A stretch of DNA of 64,000 bases from Byssovorax sp. (GCA_025362495.1 JANYGI010000034.1:1-64000); one strand, 5' to 3'; counted from the first letter of the stretch, positions 10,465-17,892 are shown. Notes: a model not told the origin generated them from the sequence alone. A program made the numbers and translations.

Positions 10465-11064
10465 TCAGGGGCTGAACGCGCGCACGTGGAGGCCTACCCA
10501 GAACGCGGCGGCCGAGCGCGCCGACGCCAGCAGCCGATCGCCGTGCGCGTCGAGGTGACGGCGCGCGTGCTCGGCGGTCGAGGCGCCGTGCTCGGCGTCG
10601 GCCTCGAGGTGGACCATGACGAAGCGCACCTGATCGCGGCCGAGGCCCAGGCGCCCGAGGTTCTTCGGGGCCGCCTCGGCGAGGTGACCACCGACGCTCT
10701 CGAGGACGTAGAGCGCGCCGAGCCACGTCGCGGGATCGTCGCTCTCCATCCAGGCGCGATGGAACGCGGTCACGTCGGCGGGCGTATCGCCCGCGGTCGT
10801 GAGGTTGAACGCCGCGAGATCGGCCTCGGCGAGCCGGTAGTGCCCGGCCTCCTCGCGCGCGAGGCGATCGAAAAATGCCTTCAAATAAGGCTCTTTTGCG
10901 CGCGTGGCGGCGTGGCGCAGGCGCTCGCCGCTGCCGCGCGTGTAGTGGACCATCGCCGAGAGGAAGCGCTGGTAGCCCTCGAGGTTCGTCGCGGCGAGGT
11001 GCGGCTTCACGGCCTCGGCCATGCTCGCGGGGAGGCGCTCGAGCTCGTTCCAGGTGTCGCTCAT
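10465..11064 (-). CDS. Heme-oxygenase-like diiron (HDO-type) protein
   Basis: A 199-residue all-helical protein. It carries the ligand pattern of heme-oxygenase-like diiron oxidases/iron-containing redox enzymes: EEAGHY at about residue 68, LYVLESVGGHL with a Glu at about 130, and HLEADAEHG (HxxxDxxH) at about 150. Known relatives (UndA, BesC types) activate oxygen to cleave or desaturate fatty acids or amino acids. The ATG at 11064 has AAAGGA seven bases upstream and overlaps the stop of the CapA-like gene as ATGA, so translation is coupled. It is the last gene of the operon. Its substrate is unknown; a TENA-like or structural role cannot be excluded. Confidence 0.72.
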   Translation of the reverse strand: MSDTWNELERLPASMAEAVKPHLAATNLEGYQRFLSAMVHYTRGSGERLRHAATRAKEPYLKAFFDRLAREEAGHYRLAEADLAAFNLTTAGDTPADVTAFHRAWMESDDPATWLGALYVLESVGGHLAEAAPKNLGRLGLGRDQVRFVMVHLEADAEHGASTAEHARRHLDAHGDRLLASARSAAAFWVGLHVRAFSP

Positions 11065-12290
11065 GGAAGTCCTTTCGGATCGATCAGCGCGCCCAGCATG
11101 GCGCGGGCGTGAGCGTGGTGGGGATCGCGGGGCAGGGCAGGGACTGTCGCGCCGTCGATCCACGACGCCCCGAGGCCGCGCGCGCTCCTGGTCGGGATCG
11201 CGCGGAGGGTGGAGAACGCCGGCACGCCGCGCGCATCGCGGCCGACGTCGATCTCGAGGAGCGCGCCGGTGCGGCAGGCCAGCGTCGGCATGATCGTCGC
11301 GAGGTTACCGAGCGACCACGCGATCAGCGCGAAGCGCGGCGGCCCGCCTCGCGTCGCCTGGAGCGGGCATGCGGGATCGGCGCCGTCGACGGAGACCATC
11401 TCGACCGGCTGGAGCACGTGCGGCGACGAGCCGACGATCACGTCGACGCCGAGCTCGATCAGCCGCCGCGCGTGCGCGCGCTGCGTCGCGGCGGGCCAGT
11501 ACTCGTACTCGAAGCCCCAGTGCGCGAGGAGGATCACGAGGTCTCCGCCGGCGAGCTTCGCCGCCGTGATCTGCGCCGCGATCCGCCGCCAGTCCGGCTC
11601 GTGCGCGGGATCGCCGAAGCGCGCCACCGGGATCCCCGCGGGCGGGGCGCCGACGAGGTGGTTCACGTCGTAGGTCACCGCCGTCAGGCCGACCGCGAGA
11701 TCGCCGACGCGGACGCCGCTGATGGCGTCGCCGGGATCGACGCCGCCGAGCACCTCCACGCCGAGGCTCTCGATCGTGTCGCGCGTGCGTCGCAGCCCGT
11801 CGTGGCCTTGATCAAGCGCGTGGTTGTTGCAGAGCGACACCACGCAGGGCCGGTCGCTGCGCCAGGCGTCGAGGTACTCGGGCGGGCTGTTGTAGTGGAG
11901 CGTCTCGTAGACGAAGCGCGGCACCGGGCGCTCGGGATCCATCGGCGTCTCGAGGTTGACGATGGCGAGATCGGCCGCGGCGATCCGCGCGCGCAGCGGC
12001 GGCGCCATCGTCTCGCGGAAGCCCGAGCGGATCCACATCAGATCACCGCCCGCGATCACCCGCACCGGCGAGCGGACCGCGCGGCTCCACGCGCCGCCCT
12101 CCAGGTAGGCCCGGGCGCGCGCGTGGTGCTCGCTGTCATCCATCGTCCACGGTGTGCGACGGTGGACGACGCTCTTGACCAGGTAGCGCAAGTTGCGGTC
12201 CCAGCGCCACAGCGGCCAGGGCCCGTCCTCGTAGCGGATGCCCTCGTAGAGCGCGGCGAGGCGCGGTGATCTCGGCGCGGGGACGCTCAA
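11061..12290 (-). CDS. CapA-family (PGA_cap) metallophosphatase-like protein
   Basis: A 409-residue protein with the CapA/PgsA metallophosphoesterase signature: VRVIAGGDLMW, LAIVNLETPM at about residue 111, SLCNNHALDQGHDGLRRT at about 155, LLAHWGFEYEYW and IVGSSPHVLQPVEM. No signal peptide or membrane anchor is seen, unlike true capsule CapA, so a cytoplasmic hydrolase is possible. The start is taken as TTG at 12290 because AAAGGAG lies seven bases upstream and the TTG overlaps the desaturase stop (TTGA). An unusual N-terminal part (about 80 residues, rich in Trp and Arg) precedes the domain. It is the sixth gene of the operon. Confidence 0.8.
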   Translation of the reverse strand: MSVPAPRSPRLAALYEGIRYEDGPWPLWRWDRNLRYLVKSVVHRRTPWTMDDSEHHARARAYLEGGAWSRAVRSPVRVIAGGDLMWIRSGFRETMAPPLRARIAAADLAIVNLETPMDPERPVPRFVYETLHYNSPPEYLDAWRSDRPCVVSLCNNHALDQGHDGLRRTRDTIESLGVEVLGGVDPGDAISGVRVGDLAVGLTAVTYDVNHLVGAPPAGIPVARFGDPAHEPDWRRIAAQITAAKLAGGDLVILLAHWGFEYEYWPAATQRAHARRLIELGVDVIVGSSPHVLQPVEMVSVDGADPACPLQATRGGPPRFALIAWSLGNLATIMPTLACRTGALLEIDVGRDARGVPAFSTLRAIPTRSARGLGASWIDGATVPALPRDPHHAHARAMLGALIDPKGLP

Positions 12291-13270
12291 CGGCGATCTC
12301 CTTTCAGGAAGCGGTGGCCATCGCTCACGTGGACGGGACCGGCGCGAAACGCCGCCCAGAACACGCGAAAGTAGCCGTCGAAGAGCGGCGCGTCGCGCTC
12401 GACCAGCGCCCCGCGGATCCGCGCGTGAACGCGGGCGAGGTTGTACCCGGGCACGCGCGGAAACAGGTGGTGATCGAGGTGGTAGTTGAGCCCGTTCCAG
12501 ATCCACGACCACAGCGCCGTCGTGCGCACCGTCGTCGCGGTGTGGAAGCGATCGCCCTTCCAGGTGTTGGCGAAATGATCCGACACCGACTTCAGGCCGT
12601 TCCACGGCGTCGCGAAGAGCAGCGGGACCAGCCAGATCTGGAGCGCGATCGAGACGAGGCCGCGCGGCGCCAGGACGAAGCGGAACACGATCACGTACGC
12701 GAGCGCGTAGAGGAAGAGCTCGGCGAGGTGGCGCGGCCAGGCGCGGCGCGCGTAGAAGACCGCGGGATACAGCACGTTGAAGTGCAGCGGCGCCAGCGCG
12801 AGGCCGAGGAAGATCACCACGTAGTACTGGGCCTTCACGAGGCCACCGGCCGCGCCGACGTTGTACGCGTCGGGATCACGCTCGGTGCGGTTGTACCAGT
12901 GGTGACGCAGGTGGGCGTGGCGCGCGGCGCTGTACGAGACCCCGAAGAGCGCGCTGAAGAGGTGCCCGTAGAGCTCGTTCTGCCAGGGCTTCGCGAAGAG
13001 GTTGTGGTGCCATGCGTCGTGCCCGAGCTGGACCAGGCCATTGATCAGGAAACCGGCGAAAATCCAGAGCGGAATGCGCGCCCACCAGGGCTCGACGCGC
13101 GTCGCGGCGAGGCCGAGCGCGAGCCACGCGGCGAAGAGCAGCGCCGTCATGCCGAGCGCGTACGCGGCGCGCGGCCGGGTGAGCTCGCGCAGCTCGTCGC
13201 GATCGATGGGCAACCCCGCGGTGCCGCGCGAGGGCTCCAGCGCGTCGTCGGGATCGTGGTCGGCGATCAT
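12287..13270 (-). CDS. Membrane fatty acid desaturase
   Basis: A 327-residue membrane protein with the three histidine boxes of membrane diiron desaturases: HDAWHHN (about residue 83), HAHLRHHW (about 118) and NYHLDHHLFPRVP (about 262). Hydrophobic segments flank them (ALLFAAWLALGLAA, IPLWIFAGFLINGLV, YYVVIFLGLALAPL, VSIALQIWLVPLLF). The family inserts double bonds or hydroxyls in acyl chains or carotenoids at the inner membrane. The ATG at 13270 overlaps the stop of the upstream methyltransferase (ATGA) and has CCGGAG upstream. Acyltransferase and methyltransferase neighbours suggest a dedicated lipid product. Confidence 0.9.
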   Translation of the reverse strand: MIADHDPDDALEPSRGTAGLPIDRDELRELTRPRAAYALGMTALLFAAWLALGLAATRVEPWWARIPLWIFAGFLINGLVQLGHDAWHHNLFAKPWQNELYGHLFSALFGVSYSAARHAHLRHHWYNRTERDPDAYNVGAAGGLVKAQYYVVIFLGLALAPLHFNVLYPAVFYARRAWPRHLAELFLYALAYVIVFRFVLAPRGLVSIALQIWLVPLLFATPWNGLKSVSDHFANTWKGDRFHTATTVRTTALWSWIWNGLNYHLDHHLFPRVPGYNLARVHARIRGALVERDAPLFDGYFRVFWAAFRAGPVHVSDGHRFLKGDRR

Positions 13271-13887
13271 CGGCGCGCTCCGGGGAGATAGCGCGGCGTG
13301 CGCGCGCAGTAGTCGGCGTACGTCGCGCCGAAGCGCTCGCGCAGGAAGGCCTCTTCCGCGAGGACGAGGCCGTGGATGCCGAGGCCGACGAGGCCGCACA
13401 GCGCCAGCAGGAGCGCCGATGGATGCCAGAGCGTCATGCCGGCGAGGAACGTCCACGAGCCGACGTAGATCGGGTTGCGGGTGAGCGCGTGGAGCCCGCC
13501 GCGTCGCAGCTCGGAGGGAGCGTCGCGCGGGTCCTGGCCGACCCGGAACGCCGCGCCCATCGAGGCCTGACTCGCGGCCATGAGCGCGAGGCCGAGCACG
13601 GCGATCGACCACGAAATCAAGGGGGAAACGACGAAGAGAGAGTGACCCGGGAGCGAGGCGCGGAACCCGCTCGAGGTGGCCGAGGCGATCAGCGTCGCCG
13701 CCCAGCCGAGCGACGCGACGGAGACGAAGCGCGTGACACGCTGGTGCGACGACGAGCCGCGTCGGTAGAGCACGAGCGGGCTGCGACGGAAGCGGATCCA
13801 GTGCACCGCCGCGGATCCGAAATGGCCCACGACGAGGTGCAGCGACGCGAACGCGAGGTGGAGCCCCGGCGCCTCTTCGAGCGTCAC
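13267..13887 (-). CDS. ICMT/PEMT-like membrane methyltransferase
   Basis: A 206-residue protein with several membrane segments (LHLAFASLHLVVGHFGSAA; SLFVVSPLISWSIAVLGLAL; LLLALCGLVGLGIHGLVL). The C-terminal block GLHALTRNPIYVGSW and later EEAFLRERFGATYADYC is the conserved SAM-binding pattern of isoprenylcysteine methyltransferase, phospholipid methyltransferase and NnrU-type proteins. The GTG start at 13887 overlaps the stop of the upstream acyltransferase gene (GTGA) with GAGGTG just before it. A small membrane-embedded or lipid-linked acceptor is likely, in keeping with the neighbouring desaturase. Confidence 0.82.
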   Translation of the reverse strand: MTLEEAPGLHLAFASLHLVVGHFGSAAVHWIRFRRSPLVLYRRGSSSHQRVTRFVSVASLGWAATLIASATSSGFRASLPGHSLFVVSPLISWSIAVLGLALMAASQASMGAAFRVGQDPRDAPSELRRGGLHALTRNPIYVGSWTFLAGMTLWHPSALLLALCGLVGLGIHGLVLAEEAFLRERFGATYADYCARTPRYLPGARR

Positions 13888-15158
13888 GCGATCACCTCGG
13901 ATCGCAGGCCGTGATGACGCGCGAGCCAGGCGCTCATCGCGTCGACGAAGGCCTCGAGATCGGCGCGCGACCATAGTCCCTCGAAGCTCGACGCGTTGAG
14001 GATCAGCGCGCCGCCGAGCGAGTACCCGTTGGCGCCCCAGGTCGGCGTGTGCGTGCAGACGTGGAGGATGGGAAAGGGCGCGTCGGCGAAGTGGCGATCG
14101 AGCGTGCCCACGTAGGTCGTCACCATGGTGTTGGCGCGGAGCGGCGCGAGAAAGTCAGGGCGAACGTGGGTGCGGAGCATCGCCGTCGACGCGACGCGCG
14201 AGGCCATGAGGCACTCGATCAGCGTGGCCCACGGGACGCCCGCGCGCAGGAGGCGGCCGAGCTCGTCGGGTACGAGGCGAGCGAGCTTTACGGGGTGGTC
14301 GAGCGCGGCGCGCACGGCGGCGCTGTCGATCTCGACGGGGACGGCGGAGCAGCCGTTCTCCAGGGTGGCGCCGACGCCGAGCTCACGGCGGAGATCGATC
14401 GGGACGCGCAGGCGGATCGGCGCGGTCCACGTGGCGTGGCGATCGTGGGCGCACATCCCGGCGAGCACGGCCGCGAAGAACAGGCCCGAGCGCGCTTCGG
14501 GGCCGAAGCGGTCGCCGAGCGGGACGCGCAGCGTGGCCAGCATCGGCGCGCCGACGGTGTCGCTGCGGCGGCCGAGCGCCTGGCCGCGGCGCGCGAGGAC
14601 GCGGCGGCGTGGATCGAGGATGGCAGGGAGCGCTCGCAGGCGCTTCGCGGCGCCTGCGAGCGCGCGAGCGTCGGAGATCTGCGCGGGGCCGAGGCGCGTC
14701 TCGGGGCGGGGAGCACCCGCGAGGATCTGCCACAGGCGCCGGTTCAAGTGCATCTGCGAGCGCGCGTCGCCGATGGCGTGGTGGAGCTGGAGCGCGACGA
14801 GGGCCGCCCCGTCCACGTCGTCAACGAGCGGAGCCACCGTGATCCGCAGCGGGACGTCGCGCGCGAGATCGATGGGCTCGCGCAGCAGCCGCGCGATGAG
14901 CTCGCGCCGCGGAGTGGCGGGCAGCTCGCGCACGGCGCGGGTGACGTCGGCGTCGGTGCGCGAGCGCGGGATCCAGTCGTTCTGCGCGGGATCCCAGGCG
15001 AAGCGCAGGCGCTCGATCTCGGCGACGAGCTGGCCCACCGCGCGGCGGAGCGCCTCGACGCGCGGCGCGGCGCGGGTGGTGATGAGCTCGCTGATCCAGA
15101 TCGGCGCGAGCTCGCCGTCGACCCGCGCGAGGAGGCGATCTACGTAGTTTGCGCGCAT
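13884..15158 (-). CDS. Condensation-domain/wax-synthase-like acyltransferase
   Basis: A 424-residue stand-alone member of the chloramphenicol-acetyltransferase/condensation superfamily. The catalytic motif HHxxxDG appears as LQLHHAIGDA at about residue 126, with Ala replacing the usual Gly; both His and the Asp are kept. Other blocks are PIWISELITTRAAPRVEAL near the N-terminus, ATWTAPIRLRVPIDLRRELG, NTMVTTYVGTLDRHF and WGANGYSLGGALILNASS, which fit wax ester synthase/DGAT or an NRPS-like C domain. It probably joins an acyl group to an alcohol or amine. Start 15158 is used (alternative 15170). It overlaps the upstream gene by 19 bp. Confidence 0.75.
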   Translation of the reverse strand: MRANYVDRLLARVDGELAPIWISELITTRAAPRVEALRRAVGQLVAEIERLRFAWDPAQNDWIPRSRTDADVTRAVRELPATPRRELIARLLREPIDLARDVPLRITVAPLVDDVDGAALVALQLHHAIGDARSQMHLNRRLWQILAGAPRPETRLGPAQISDARALAGAAKRLRALPAILDPRRRVLARRGQALGRRSDTVGAPMLATLRVPLGDRFGPEARSGLFFAAVLAGMCAHDRHATWTAPIRLRVPIDLRRELGVGATLENGCSAVPVEIDSAAVRAALDHPVKLARLVPDELGRLLRAGVPWATLIECLMASRVASTAMLRTHVRPDFLAPLRANTMVTTYVGTLDRHFADAPFPILHVCTHTPTWGANGYSLGGALILNASSFEGLWSRADLEAFVDAMSAWLARHHGLRSEVIA

Positions 15159-16114
15159 GCCGACAGCCATCCTTCCACGAGCGCGCGGCCGGGTGGAGCG
15201 AGGGCGGCCGCCGCGAGCGCGACCCTCGCGTCGTCGCGCCGCGAGCCGGGGAGCCGCTGCAAGATCACCTCGTCGGGGCGCGTCACGTGCGGCCTCACGC
15301 CCACCGGCACGAACCCGACGCGCTCCAGCGCGGGGAACGCGGCCACGAGCTGATCGCAGGGCAGGTGCAGGAGATCGACGCGCGCGGTCTCGGCGTCGAG
15401 CGCGGCCGCGAGCGGCATCCCCCGGGGCGGTCGCATCACCACGCGCCGCAGCAGATCGAGGGCCGGGTTGCGCTCGATCGTCTCGAGCCCGAGCCGGTGC
15501 AGCGTCAACGTCGCGTCGCAGGGGAGCGCGGTGATCTCGAGATCGGCGAACACGCCCCCGAGCCACGCGCCCCAGGGCCCGCGCGGTACCAGCACCACGT
15601 GCGGCCGAGCTGGCAGGCGATCCGGGCGCACCACGGTGGTCATCGTCAGCGCCTGCATCGGCGTCGTCGGGTGCGCGAGGCCGACGAGGCGCTCGCCTTC
15701 CACGTAGTCGACGATCACGCCGGTGGGGCGCGCGCGCATGTACCGCGCGGCGTAGCGCTGCGCGAGCGGGTGCCAGGTCGAGGTGTTCTGGTGGACGAAG
15801 ACGCAGCGATCGCCGAGCCAGGCGAGGAGGCGATCCCACACGACGGCGTCGGGGGTGCCGGCGCGCGCTCGCGCTCCGCGGAACGAGAGGCCGGACTCGA
15901 CATAGTCGCCGAGCGAGTCCTTGAAGAGGAACGCGGTGTGGCTGAGCAGCTGGCCCGCCGGCTCGAAATCGCCCCAGAGCGCCGCGCGGTTCGATCGGAT
16001 CAGCGCGGCCACGCCGCCGGGCTCGTAGAGCGCGCGGTACGAGTACGTGTCGCCGTACACCTCCCGCAGGAGCGCGACGAAGGCCGGCTCGTCACGCTCC
16101 TGGAGCAAGCGCAT
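15140..16114 (-). CDS. GNAT-like protein, function unknown
   Basis: A 324-residue protein. The first about 110 residues (EPAFVALLREVYGDTYSYR, GQLLSHTAFLFKDSLGDYVE, SGLSFRGARARAGTPDAV) look like an N-acetyltransferase fold with a beta-4/beta-5 strand pattern. The C-terminal half has a second alpha/beta part including PHVVLVPRGPWGAWLGGV and ERVGFVPVGVRPHV. It may be a double-GNAT protein. The ATG at 16114 lies eight bases after the phosphohexomutase stop. It is the second gene of the operon; acyl-CoA-dependent modification of the pathway product is a reasonable guess only. Confidence 0.55.
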   Translation of the reverse strand: MRLLQERDEPAFVALLREVYGDTYSYRALYEPGGVAALIRSNRAALWGDFEPAGQLLSHTAFLFKDSLGDYVESGLSFRGARARAGTPDAVVWDRLLAWLGDRCVFVHQNTSTWHPLAQRYAARYMRARPTGVIVDYVEGERLVGLAHPTTPMQALTMTTVVRPDRLPARPHVVLVPRGPWGAWLGGVFADLEITALPCDATLTLHRLGLETIERNPALDLLRRVVMRPPRGMPLAAALDAETARVDLLHLPCDQLVAAFPALERVGFVPVGVRPHVTRPDEVILQRLPGSRRDDARVALAAAALAPPGRALVEGWLSACAQTT

Positions 16115-16122
16115 CCCGGCGT

Positions 16123-17892
16123 TCAGGCGACGCCCGCGACCGCGCTGAAGGCCTTCGAGAGCTCGTCCATCCGGGCGCGGGCGCGGGCCTCGGCGCCCTC
16201 GATCGGCTCGCCCGCGTGCATCGGCTCGCGCAGATCGAAGTAGAACTTGATCTTGGGCTCGGTGCCGCTCGGGCGCGCGATGATCCGGCTGCCGCCCTCG
16301 AGCTCGTAGGCCAGCACGTTGCTCGGCGGGAGCGCGAGCTTCTCCTCGGCGCCGGCGGCCGTGCGCCGCGTCTGCGCCTGGTAGTCCGACGTCGACACCA
16401 CCGCGTGGCGGCCGATCGTGGTCGGCGGATTCGCGCGGAGCTTCGTCATGATCTCGCCGATCTGGGCGACGCCTTCGGCGCCGGGGAGCGTGCTCGACTT
16501 CTGCCCGCTGACGAAGAGGCCGTAGCGGCGCGACAGCATCTCGAGCTCGTCGAGCAGCGTCTTGCCCTCGGAGGCGCGCCGGGCCGCGAGCTCGGCGGCG
16601 ATCACCGCGGCGCTGATCCCGTCCTTGTCGCGGACGTTGTCGCCGACCGTGTAGCCGAGCGCTTCTTCGAAGCCGAAGACGAAGCGCATGCCCTCGGTGC
16701 GCTCCAGATCCATCGCGCGGTTGGCGATCCACTTGAAGCCGGTGAGCGTCTCCTCGTAGTACACGCCGAGCGCCTTGGCGATCACGCCGAGCATGGGCGA
16801 CGAGACCAGCGACGCGAGCACGACGCGGCCCGTGGTCCCCGCGTCTTTGCCCTCGGTGAGCACGTAGTGGCCGAGGATCGCGCCGACCTGGTTGCCGGTG
16901 AGCTGGATGAATTTCCCCGCGGGGCCGCGCACCGCGAGGGCGAGGCGATCGACGTCGGGATCGTTGGCGATCACCAGGTTCGCGCCGATGCGATCGGCGT
17001 TTTCGTAGGCGAGATCGAGCGCGCCCTTCTCCTCGGGGTTGGGGAATTTCACCGTCGGGAACGCGCCGTCCGGCTCGGCCTGCTCGGGCACGGTGGTGAT
17101 CGCGGTGAAGCCGGCCTCGGCGAAGGCCATGCGCGCGACGCGGTTGCCCGTCCCGTGCATCGGCGTGTAGCTGATCGGGATCGATCGATCGCCGCCCGCG
17201 TGGACCCAGAGGCCGCGCACGGCGTCGAGGTAGCGGCGCTCCATGTCGTCGCCGAAGAGCTTCACGGCGCCCGACGCGAGCGCCTCGGCGTAGGGCGTGA
17301 GCGGCACCGCGTCGGCCTCGGGCGAGGCGGCGATCTCCTTCGCGATCCCGCTGTCGTGCGGCGGGATGATCTGCGCGCCGTTGCTCCAGTAGACCTTGTA
17401 CCCGTTGTACTGCGGCGGGTTGTGGCTCGCCGTCACCATCACGCCGGCCGCGGCGCCGAGGTCTTTCACGGCGAAGGCGAGCAGCGGCGTCGAGCACGGT
17501 CGCGGCGTCACGTGCGCGGGGATGCCGAGCGAGGCCAGCACGCTCGCGGTGTCCTCGGCGAGCTCGCGCCCGAGGATGCGCCCGTCGTAGCCGATGACGA
17601 CGCCGCTCGTGCGCGTGAGCTCCGGCGCCTGCGCGAGCAGGTATTTGCCGAGGCCGTACGTCGTCTTGCGGACGACGGCGCGGTTCATCCGGGACTCGCC
17701 GCCGCCGAGGAGCCCGCGGAGGCCCGCGGTGCCGAACTCGAGCATGCCGACGAAGCGCTCGGCGAGATCGGCCGCCGCCTTGGCGTCGCCGGCGCGCGCG
17801 GCGTCGATCAGCGCGCGGACCTCGGCTTGCGTGGTGGGATCGGGATCGTGCGTGGCGAAGCGGGCGGCGCGGTCGAGCAGGGAGGCATCCAT
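16123..17892 (-). CDS. Phosphoglucomutase/phosphomannomutase (phosphohexomutase)
   Basis: A 589-residue phospho-sugar mutase of the bacterial/eukaryotic PGM2-like length. The phosphoserine loop TASHNPPQYNGYKVYW is at about residues 154-169, the metal loop NDPDVDRLALAV is present, the sugar-binding GFEEALGY follows, and the phosphate-binding RPSGTEPKIKFYFD ends the enzyme. It interconverts hexose-1- and -6-phosphates in the cytoplasm. The ATG at 17892 (MDASLLDRAARF) is chosen because the frame upstream runs antisense through the region before the kinase gene. It is the first gene of the seven-gene operon, divergent from the kinase with 89 bp between the chosen starts. It may be housekeeping or supply sugar phosphate. 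Confidence 0.93.
   Translation of the reverse strand: MDASLLDRAARFATHDPDPTTQAEVRALIDAARAGDAKAAADLAERFVGMLEFGTAGLRGLLGGGESRMNRAVVRKTTYGLGKYLLAQAPELTRTSGVVIGYDGRILGRELAEDTASVLASLGIPAHVTPRPCSTPLLAFAVKDLGAAAGVMVTASHNPPQYNGYKVYWSNGAQIIPPHDSGIAKEIAASPEADAVPLTPYAEALASGAVKLFGDDMERRYLDAVRGLWVHAGGDRSIPISYTPMHGTGNRVARMAFAEAGFTAITTVPEQAEPDGAFPTVKFPNPEEKGALDLAYENADRIGANLVIANDPDVDRLALAVRGPAGKFIQLTGNQVGAILGHYVLTEGKDAGTTGRVVLASLVSSPMLGVIAKALGVYYEETLTGFKWIANRAMDLERTEGMRFVFGFEEALGYTVGDNVRDKDGISAAVIAAELAARRASEGKTLLDELEMLSRRYGLFVSGQKSSTLPGAEGVAQIGEIMTKLRANPPTTIGRHAVVSTSDYQAQTRRTAAGAEEKLALPPSNVLAYELEGGSRIIARPSGTEPKIKFYFDLREPMHAGEPIEGAEARARARMDELSKAFSAVAGVA

Follow-up and report, generated by a model that had tools for sequence, protein, structure and literature searches.

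A compact six-gene cassette in Myxococcota and Legionella, probably directing the synthesis of an undescribed small molecule

A unit of six genes on the minus strand at 10465-16114 (Table 1) was identified as a real operon in the window, which is the whole 64,000-nucleotide stretch of Byssovorax sp. DNA that was analysed. On balance, it is considered probable that the unit is a complete, horizontally mobile operon that converts a common precursor into a small molecule, with no carrier-protein or adenylation machinery of its own. The product is probably a small, methylated and oxidised metabolite, likely to be acylated, and is probably a molecule so far undescribed. At 5.6 kb, the six-enzyme set is sharply bounded and is kept together across phyla while moving between sites. 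As a small bounded set, it is an easy target for heterologous expression.

Gene content and boundaries

The original prediction described a seven-gene, almost gapless operon that included a phosphohexomutase. The open reading frames, the overlaps and the almost gapless set are all present, including the GTGA (13887-13884), ATGA (13270-13267 and 11064-11061) and TTGA (12290-12287) stop/start overlaps reported from its third gene onward. A 19-nt overlap joins gene 1 to gene 2, and it recurs in 14 of the 18 relatives measured; the other junctions vary from short overlaps to a gap of 38 nt, and most are within a few bases. The phosphohexomutase, however, is a core gene, with strong matches in 22 of 25 relatives, and it adjoined the cassette in none of the other genomes' cassette loci compared. 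The seven-gene operon was therefore rejected in favour of one of six genes.

Table 1. Genes of the cassette and the adjacent upstream gene, with the basis of each assignment.
Feature	Position	Strand	Basis
Gene 1, GNAT-fold protein, 324 aa	15140..16114	-	Predicted fold; no Pfam or NCBIfam match
Gene 2, free-standing NRPS-condensation-superfamily enzyme	13884..15158	-	Fold match, invariant HHxxGD
Gene 3, ICMT/PEMT-type membrane methyltransferase	13267..13887	-	PF04191
Gene 4, fatty-acid-desaturase-superfamily membrane diiron oxidase or hydroxylase	12287..13270	-	PF00487, nine invariant His
Gene 5, CapA/PGA_cap calcineurin-like metalloenzyme	11061..12290	-	PF09587
Gene 6, heme-oxygenase-like diiron oxidase (HDO)	10465..11064	-	PF14518, six-ligand set
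Phosphohexomutase, upstream core gene, outside the unit	16123..17892	-	Pfam match above cut-off

No flanking gene is common to different lineages, except for a cytochrome P450 in Legionella, therefore the six genes represent the whole conserved unit. Among the proteins of the window, the mutase, PEMT methyltransferase, desaturase, PGA_cap/CapA and Haem_oxygenas_2 matches to Pfam were all above cut-offs; there was no Pfam match for the GNAT-like and condensation-like proteins.

Only 8 bp (16115-16122) lie between the mutase stop codon and gene 1, so that transcription of the window copy may begin at the mutase promoter. Repeated GTGCA/TGCAC motifs (TGTGCAG...GCTGCAC) are present in the conserved 5′ region upstream of gene 1 in four loci (L067, L068, L069, and L073) and are a candidate operator. 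No Rfam elements were found in five cassette loci.

Distribution and shared inheritance

All six genes are present in the same order (GNAT, condensation, methyltransferase, desaturase, CapA, HDO) in 27 genomes, including the window, from Myxococcota, Legionella, and one planctomycete MAG; this count leaves out copies that are truncated at contig ends, interrupted in gene 2 (L111), or divided between contigs (G298). Homologues in relatives are thus adjacent and not scattered, as the original prediction expected, with the mutase as the exception. It could be argued that the genes are chance neighbours and not a pathway, which would fit the mutase only; strict synteny of the six genes in 27 genomes, between unrelated flanks, refutes this for the cassette and makes it extremely improbable.

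Scanning 84,980 species genomes with a desaturase profile identified 20 such loci, mostly in the Myxococcaceae (Corallococcus, Myxococcus, Pyxidicoccus, Archangium, and Hyalangium), the others being in further Myxococcota MAGs, one planctomycete MAG, and Legionella santicrucis. Three Legionella genomes beyond L. santicrucis also carry the cassette. A more sensitive profile search detected the desaturase in 26 of the 96 genomes belonging to the same family as a Myxococcus genome, in 4 of the 45 from the genus of the Legionella genome, and in 1 of the 343 from the phylum of the planctomycete MAG. Strong relatives of the condensation-type protein occur in only 4 of the 184 genomes of the window's order, counting the window's own. 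The distribution of the cassette is accessory and patchy.

Pairwise divergences of the six proteins are correlated (rho 0.80-0.93; ten diverged representatives, giving 45 non-independent pairs). Ratios of dN/dS in four pairs are mostly 0.13-0.42; one value, 0.78, comes from a very close pair with a small dS. The cassette genes are inherited together and are under purifying selection.

Irregular copies were also seen. In G298, one contig (L064/L083) has the first four genes and then a MarR-like gene, with CapA and HDO on another (L087), which could be a split cassette or an assembly artefact. In one MAG (L047:635-2236, the same as L065), the methyltransferase and desaturase share a single continuous open frame, which may reflect either a genuine fusion or a misassembly. 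The condensation-type gene of one Legionella copy (L111:6023-7299) is in two overlapping tblastn pieces, due to a frameshift or sequencing error.

Mobility of the cassette

In Corallococcus and Archangium, 11 genomes (L068, L070-L072, L075-L078, and L113-L115) share, with 96-99 % identity, a block of ~5.87 kb that extends from ~150 bp ahead of gene 1 to ~13 bp beyond gene 6. Its edges are ragged and its surroundings, compared for the cassette loci only, are mostly different, a few copies having one flank in common. Such identity at mostly different sites indicates that the whole block moves together. The Archangium copy L070 falls within the Corallococcus clade, implying recent transfer between genera. 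The GC content of the cassette tracks that of the host (0.37 in Legionella and ~0.73-0.75 in most Myxococcaceae), therefore the deeper transfers are old.

A transposon with defined ends was considered and rejected, based on the ragged Corallococcus boundaries and the absence of terminal repeats visible by eye. When the joined flanks of one Archangium-clade copy (L113) were used as the search sequence, no contiguous empty site was found; the only matches were to the flanks lying apart and to a dispersed repeat. Likewise, a plasmid-borne cassette was rejected, there being no plasmid record with a close relative of the Legionella desaturase.

The dispersed repeat, of ~210 bp, lies beside some copies (L113:4726-4946, L069:4569-4782, and L078:4771-4876). 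Across the Myxococcaceae there are several copies per genome, sometimes a few kb apart. It has no Rfam match and is absent from the window.

GNAT-fold and condensation-fold proteins

The AlphaFold model of gene 1 (pLDDT 87) consists of an N-terminal GNAT domain and a second alpha/beta half, with residues 1-170 aligning to GNATs at Z 10.6-12.1. The predicted GNAT fold agrees with the GNAT-like label given previously, but the CoA pyrophosphate loop (Q/RxxGxG/A) is absent at the equivalent position in 12 of 12 sequences. As this canonical loop is missing, use of acetyl-CoA is doubtful.

In gene 2, the HHxxGD motif is invariant (H126, H127, G130, and D131). Eight of the 12 members of the condensation-type alignment match Pfam Condensation at E≤1, the best at 6.4e-6. 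The predicted model (pLDDT 85) has Z-scores of 23-34 against many C domains, and the protein is assigned from this model to the condensation-domain superfamily (CAT-like fold, HHxxxD). The best structural match was the AzeD dehydratase of Pseudomonas aeruginosa (PDB 8s6l; Z 34.0, 3.0 Å, 393 residues, 16 % identity), the next being at 28.0. AzeD is also a free-standing condensation-fold enzyme. It belongs to an NRPS cluster, however, and there is none at the cassette. The modelled likeness to AzeD is one of fold only. Acyltransferases of the PapA5 and wax ester synthase type share the fold and HHxxxD motif with gene 2, with lower Z-scores than AzeD (26.0 and 24.5, respectively); against the NCBIfam PapA5 model (NF006787), gene 2 scores 21.2 bits (E 1.2e-4), far below the 396-bit cut-off. 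The condensation fold of the original prediction is therefore retained, while its acyltransferase role is unproven and, judged from the model, possible. The proteins of genes 1 and 2 are both too diverged for a reaction to be assigned.

Methyltransferase and metalloenzymes

The HDO, CapA, and desaturase proteins were judged from sequence motifs, structure models being used for genes 1 and 2. The original prediction of a membrane methyltransferase, a CapA-like protein, and two oxygen-activating iron enzymes, the latter a desaturase-family protein and an HDO, is upheld by Pfam matches above cut-offs and, for the predicted iron enzymes, by invariant histidines or ligands.

Gene 3 matches PF04191 (E 4e-9, 37.3 bits against a cut-off of 25) and its RNP and EE motifs are invariant. 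Its score against the ICMT isoprenylcysteine methyltransferase model (NF040696) is 35.1 bits, below the 160-bit cut-off, and there is a weak NCBIfam match to the lipid A methyltransferase LmtA. Gene 4 matches PF00487 (E 3.3e-34) and has the three His boxes of the family, with nine histidines invariant in 13 of 13 sequences. Its NCBIfam scores are 45.8 bits for GntB (NF041365) and 42.7 bits for CrtR, far below cut-offs (380 for GntB), and the fatty-acid DesA and DesB models score lower than either. Of three desaturase-family proteins scanned, GntB was the top match in two (window, 45.8 bits; Legionella, 41.5 bits) and CrtR in the third. GntB, the L-arginine hydroxylase of guanitoxin, is like gene 4 a member of the membrane desaturase superfamily; we know of no other guanitoxin gene in the cassette.

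Gene 5 matches PF09587 (E 2.4e-46, 158.8 bits) and scores 35.9 bits, against a cut-off of 700, with the MslH epimerase model (NF038314). The roles of residues in the CapA family are taken from MslH, a lasso-peptide epimerase (PMC10406935). Seven of eight MslH metal or catalytic residues (Asp11, Glu44, Asn87, His88, Asp91, His259, and His295; PMC10406935) have equivalents in gene 5, where the invariant residues are D83, E114, N156, H157, D160, H257, and H291. Gene 5 differs from MslH in having Gly or Ser at the His261 equivalent and a conserved N-terminal extension, and no lasso peptide genes accompany it.

Gene 6 matches PF14518 (E 9.6e-15). The ligand set of the HDO superfamily is ExxH, Glu, and HxxxDx(n)H (PMC13185094), and the equivalent E72, H75, E122, H152, D156, and H159 are invariant in 12 of 12 sequences. 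This six-ligand set identifies gene 6 as a putative HDO, for which iron binding and O2 chemistry are predicted. By profile, its nearest relative of solved structure is 3dde, a protein of unknown function.

Comparison with known systems

A literature search, with most subscription journals outside its coverage, found no described pathway with this six-gene set, in agreement with the original prediction. Among the closest known systems is the mangotoxin operon mboABCDEF, an HDO acetylenase pathway, which like the cassette is compact, with six genes, a small product, free-standing enzymes, and an HDO with a 3-His/3-carboxylate diiron site (PMC13185094). However, mbo has ATP-grasp amino-acid ligases and the flavin/Fe2S2 reductase MboB, which the cassette does not, while the desaturase-family, methyltransferase, CapA, and condensation-fold genes of the cassette are not described for mbo in that report (PMC13185094). 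Since neither an ATP-grasp ligase nor an MboB-like reductase was found among the six genes with Pfam and NCBIfam, a mangotoxin-type operon was rejected. A known anti-phage defence system was also rejected, with no matches to the PADLOC models.

Proposed pathway

In the proposed pathway, the GNAT-fold and condensation-fold enzymes would form or remodel an intermediate that is either an acyl/amide or dehydrated. Two C-H oxidations, whether hydroxylation, desaturation, or fragmentation, would fall to the desaturase-family enzyme in the membrane and to the soluble HDO. The membrane ICMT-type enzyme may O-methylate a carboxylate, phenol, or phosphate, and the CapA-type metalloenzyme may hydrolyse or epimerise. 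Since the unit does not include a ligase, carrier protein, PKS, or NRPS, the precursor is probably from general metabolism. Unusual chemistry is predicted from the combination of an HDO, a membrane diiron oxidase, a condensation-fold enzyme, and a CapA metalloenzyme in a unit that has no NRPS, PKS, or ligase.

The lipid tailoring of the original prediction is one of two live options for the substrate. Here, the enzymes would acylate, desaturate, and methylate a membrane or storage lipid, which is consistent with the desaturase-family and PEMT/ICMT-family membrane enzymes, the presence of PapA5 and wax ester synthase among the condensation-fold relatives, and the LmtA match. This is plausible, although short of probable: the desaturase scores highest against hydroxylases of arginine and carotenoids, amino acids are the substrates of many characterised HDOs (PMC13185094), and an accessory, patchy cassette is unlike core lipid metabolism.

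The same HDO substrates, together with the top GntB matches, the MslH residues retained in CapA, and the nearest fold of gene 2 being from a peptide pathway, would suit the second option, an amino-acid- or peptide-derived metabolite of antimetabolite or signal type. The HDO and GntB-like enzyme would oxidise the side chain, CapA would epimerise as MslH does, and the methyltransferase would cap a carboxylate. Every score is far below its family cut-off, however, the unit is without an ATP-grasp ligase or NRPS, and the MslH His261 is replaced in gene 5, thus this option is likewise credible but not to be counted as probable. The similarities to GntB, MslH, AzeD, and HDOs favour an amino-acid-derived intermediate, while the two membrane enzymes suggest that it is lipophilic. 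An acylated amino-acid-like compound would fit both hints.

Given the lack of a ligase, carrier, or transporter, the role of the unit might be confined to tailoring, with unlinked genes supplying the scaffold that it decorates. The lack of a scaffold-forming enzyme and the unrelated flanks are compatible with this, but the scaffold would need a source in both Corallococcus and Legionella, which are very different hosts, and nothing adjoining the cassette was recognised as a partner locus. Such a role is therefore rather unlikely.

Where instead the six genes make their own product, it is tentatively suggested, as a possibility somewhat below even, that they represent a new class of natural-product pathway. 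This would be a self-contained, carrier-free route to a doubly diiron-oxidised metabolite, encoded by a mobile six-gene unit common to predatory myxobacteria and amoeba-dwelling Legionella. The new chemotype could be, for example, a methylated, desaturated acyl-amino-acid or lipid, serving as a signal or weapon. The Legionella copies raise the question of a molecule common to bacterial predators and protozoan parasites.

In all four of the Legionella copies (L082:3644-5014, L110, L111, and L112), the P450 is directly upstream of the cassette on the same strand. These P450s are 42-95 % identical to that of L. santicrucis and represent a lineage-specific extra step.
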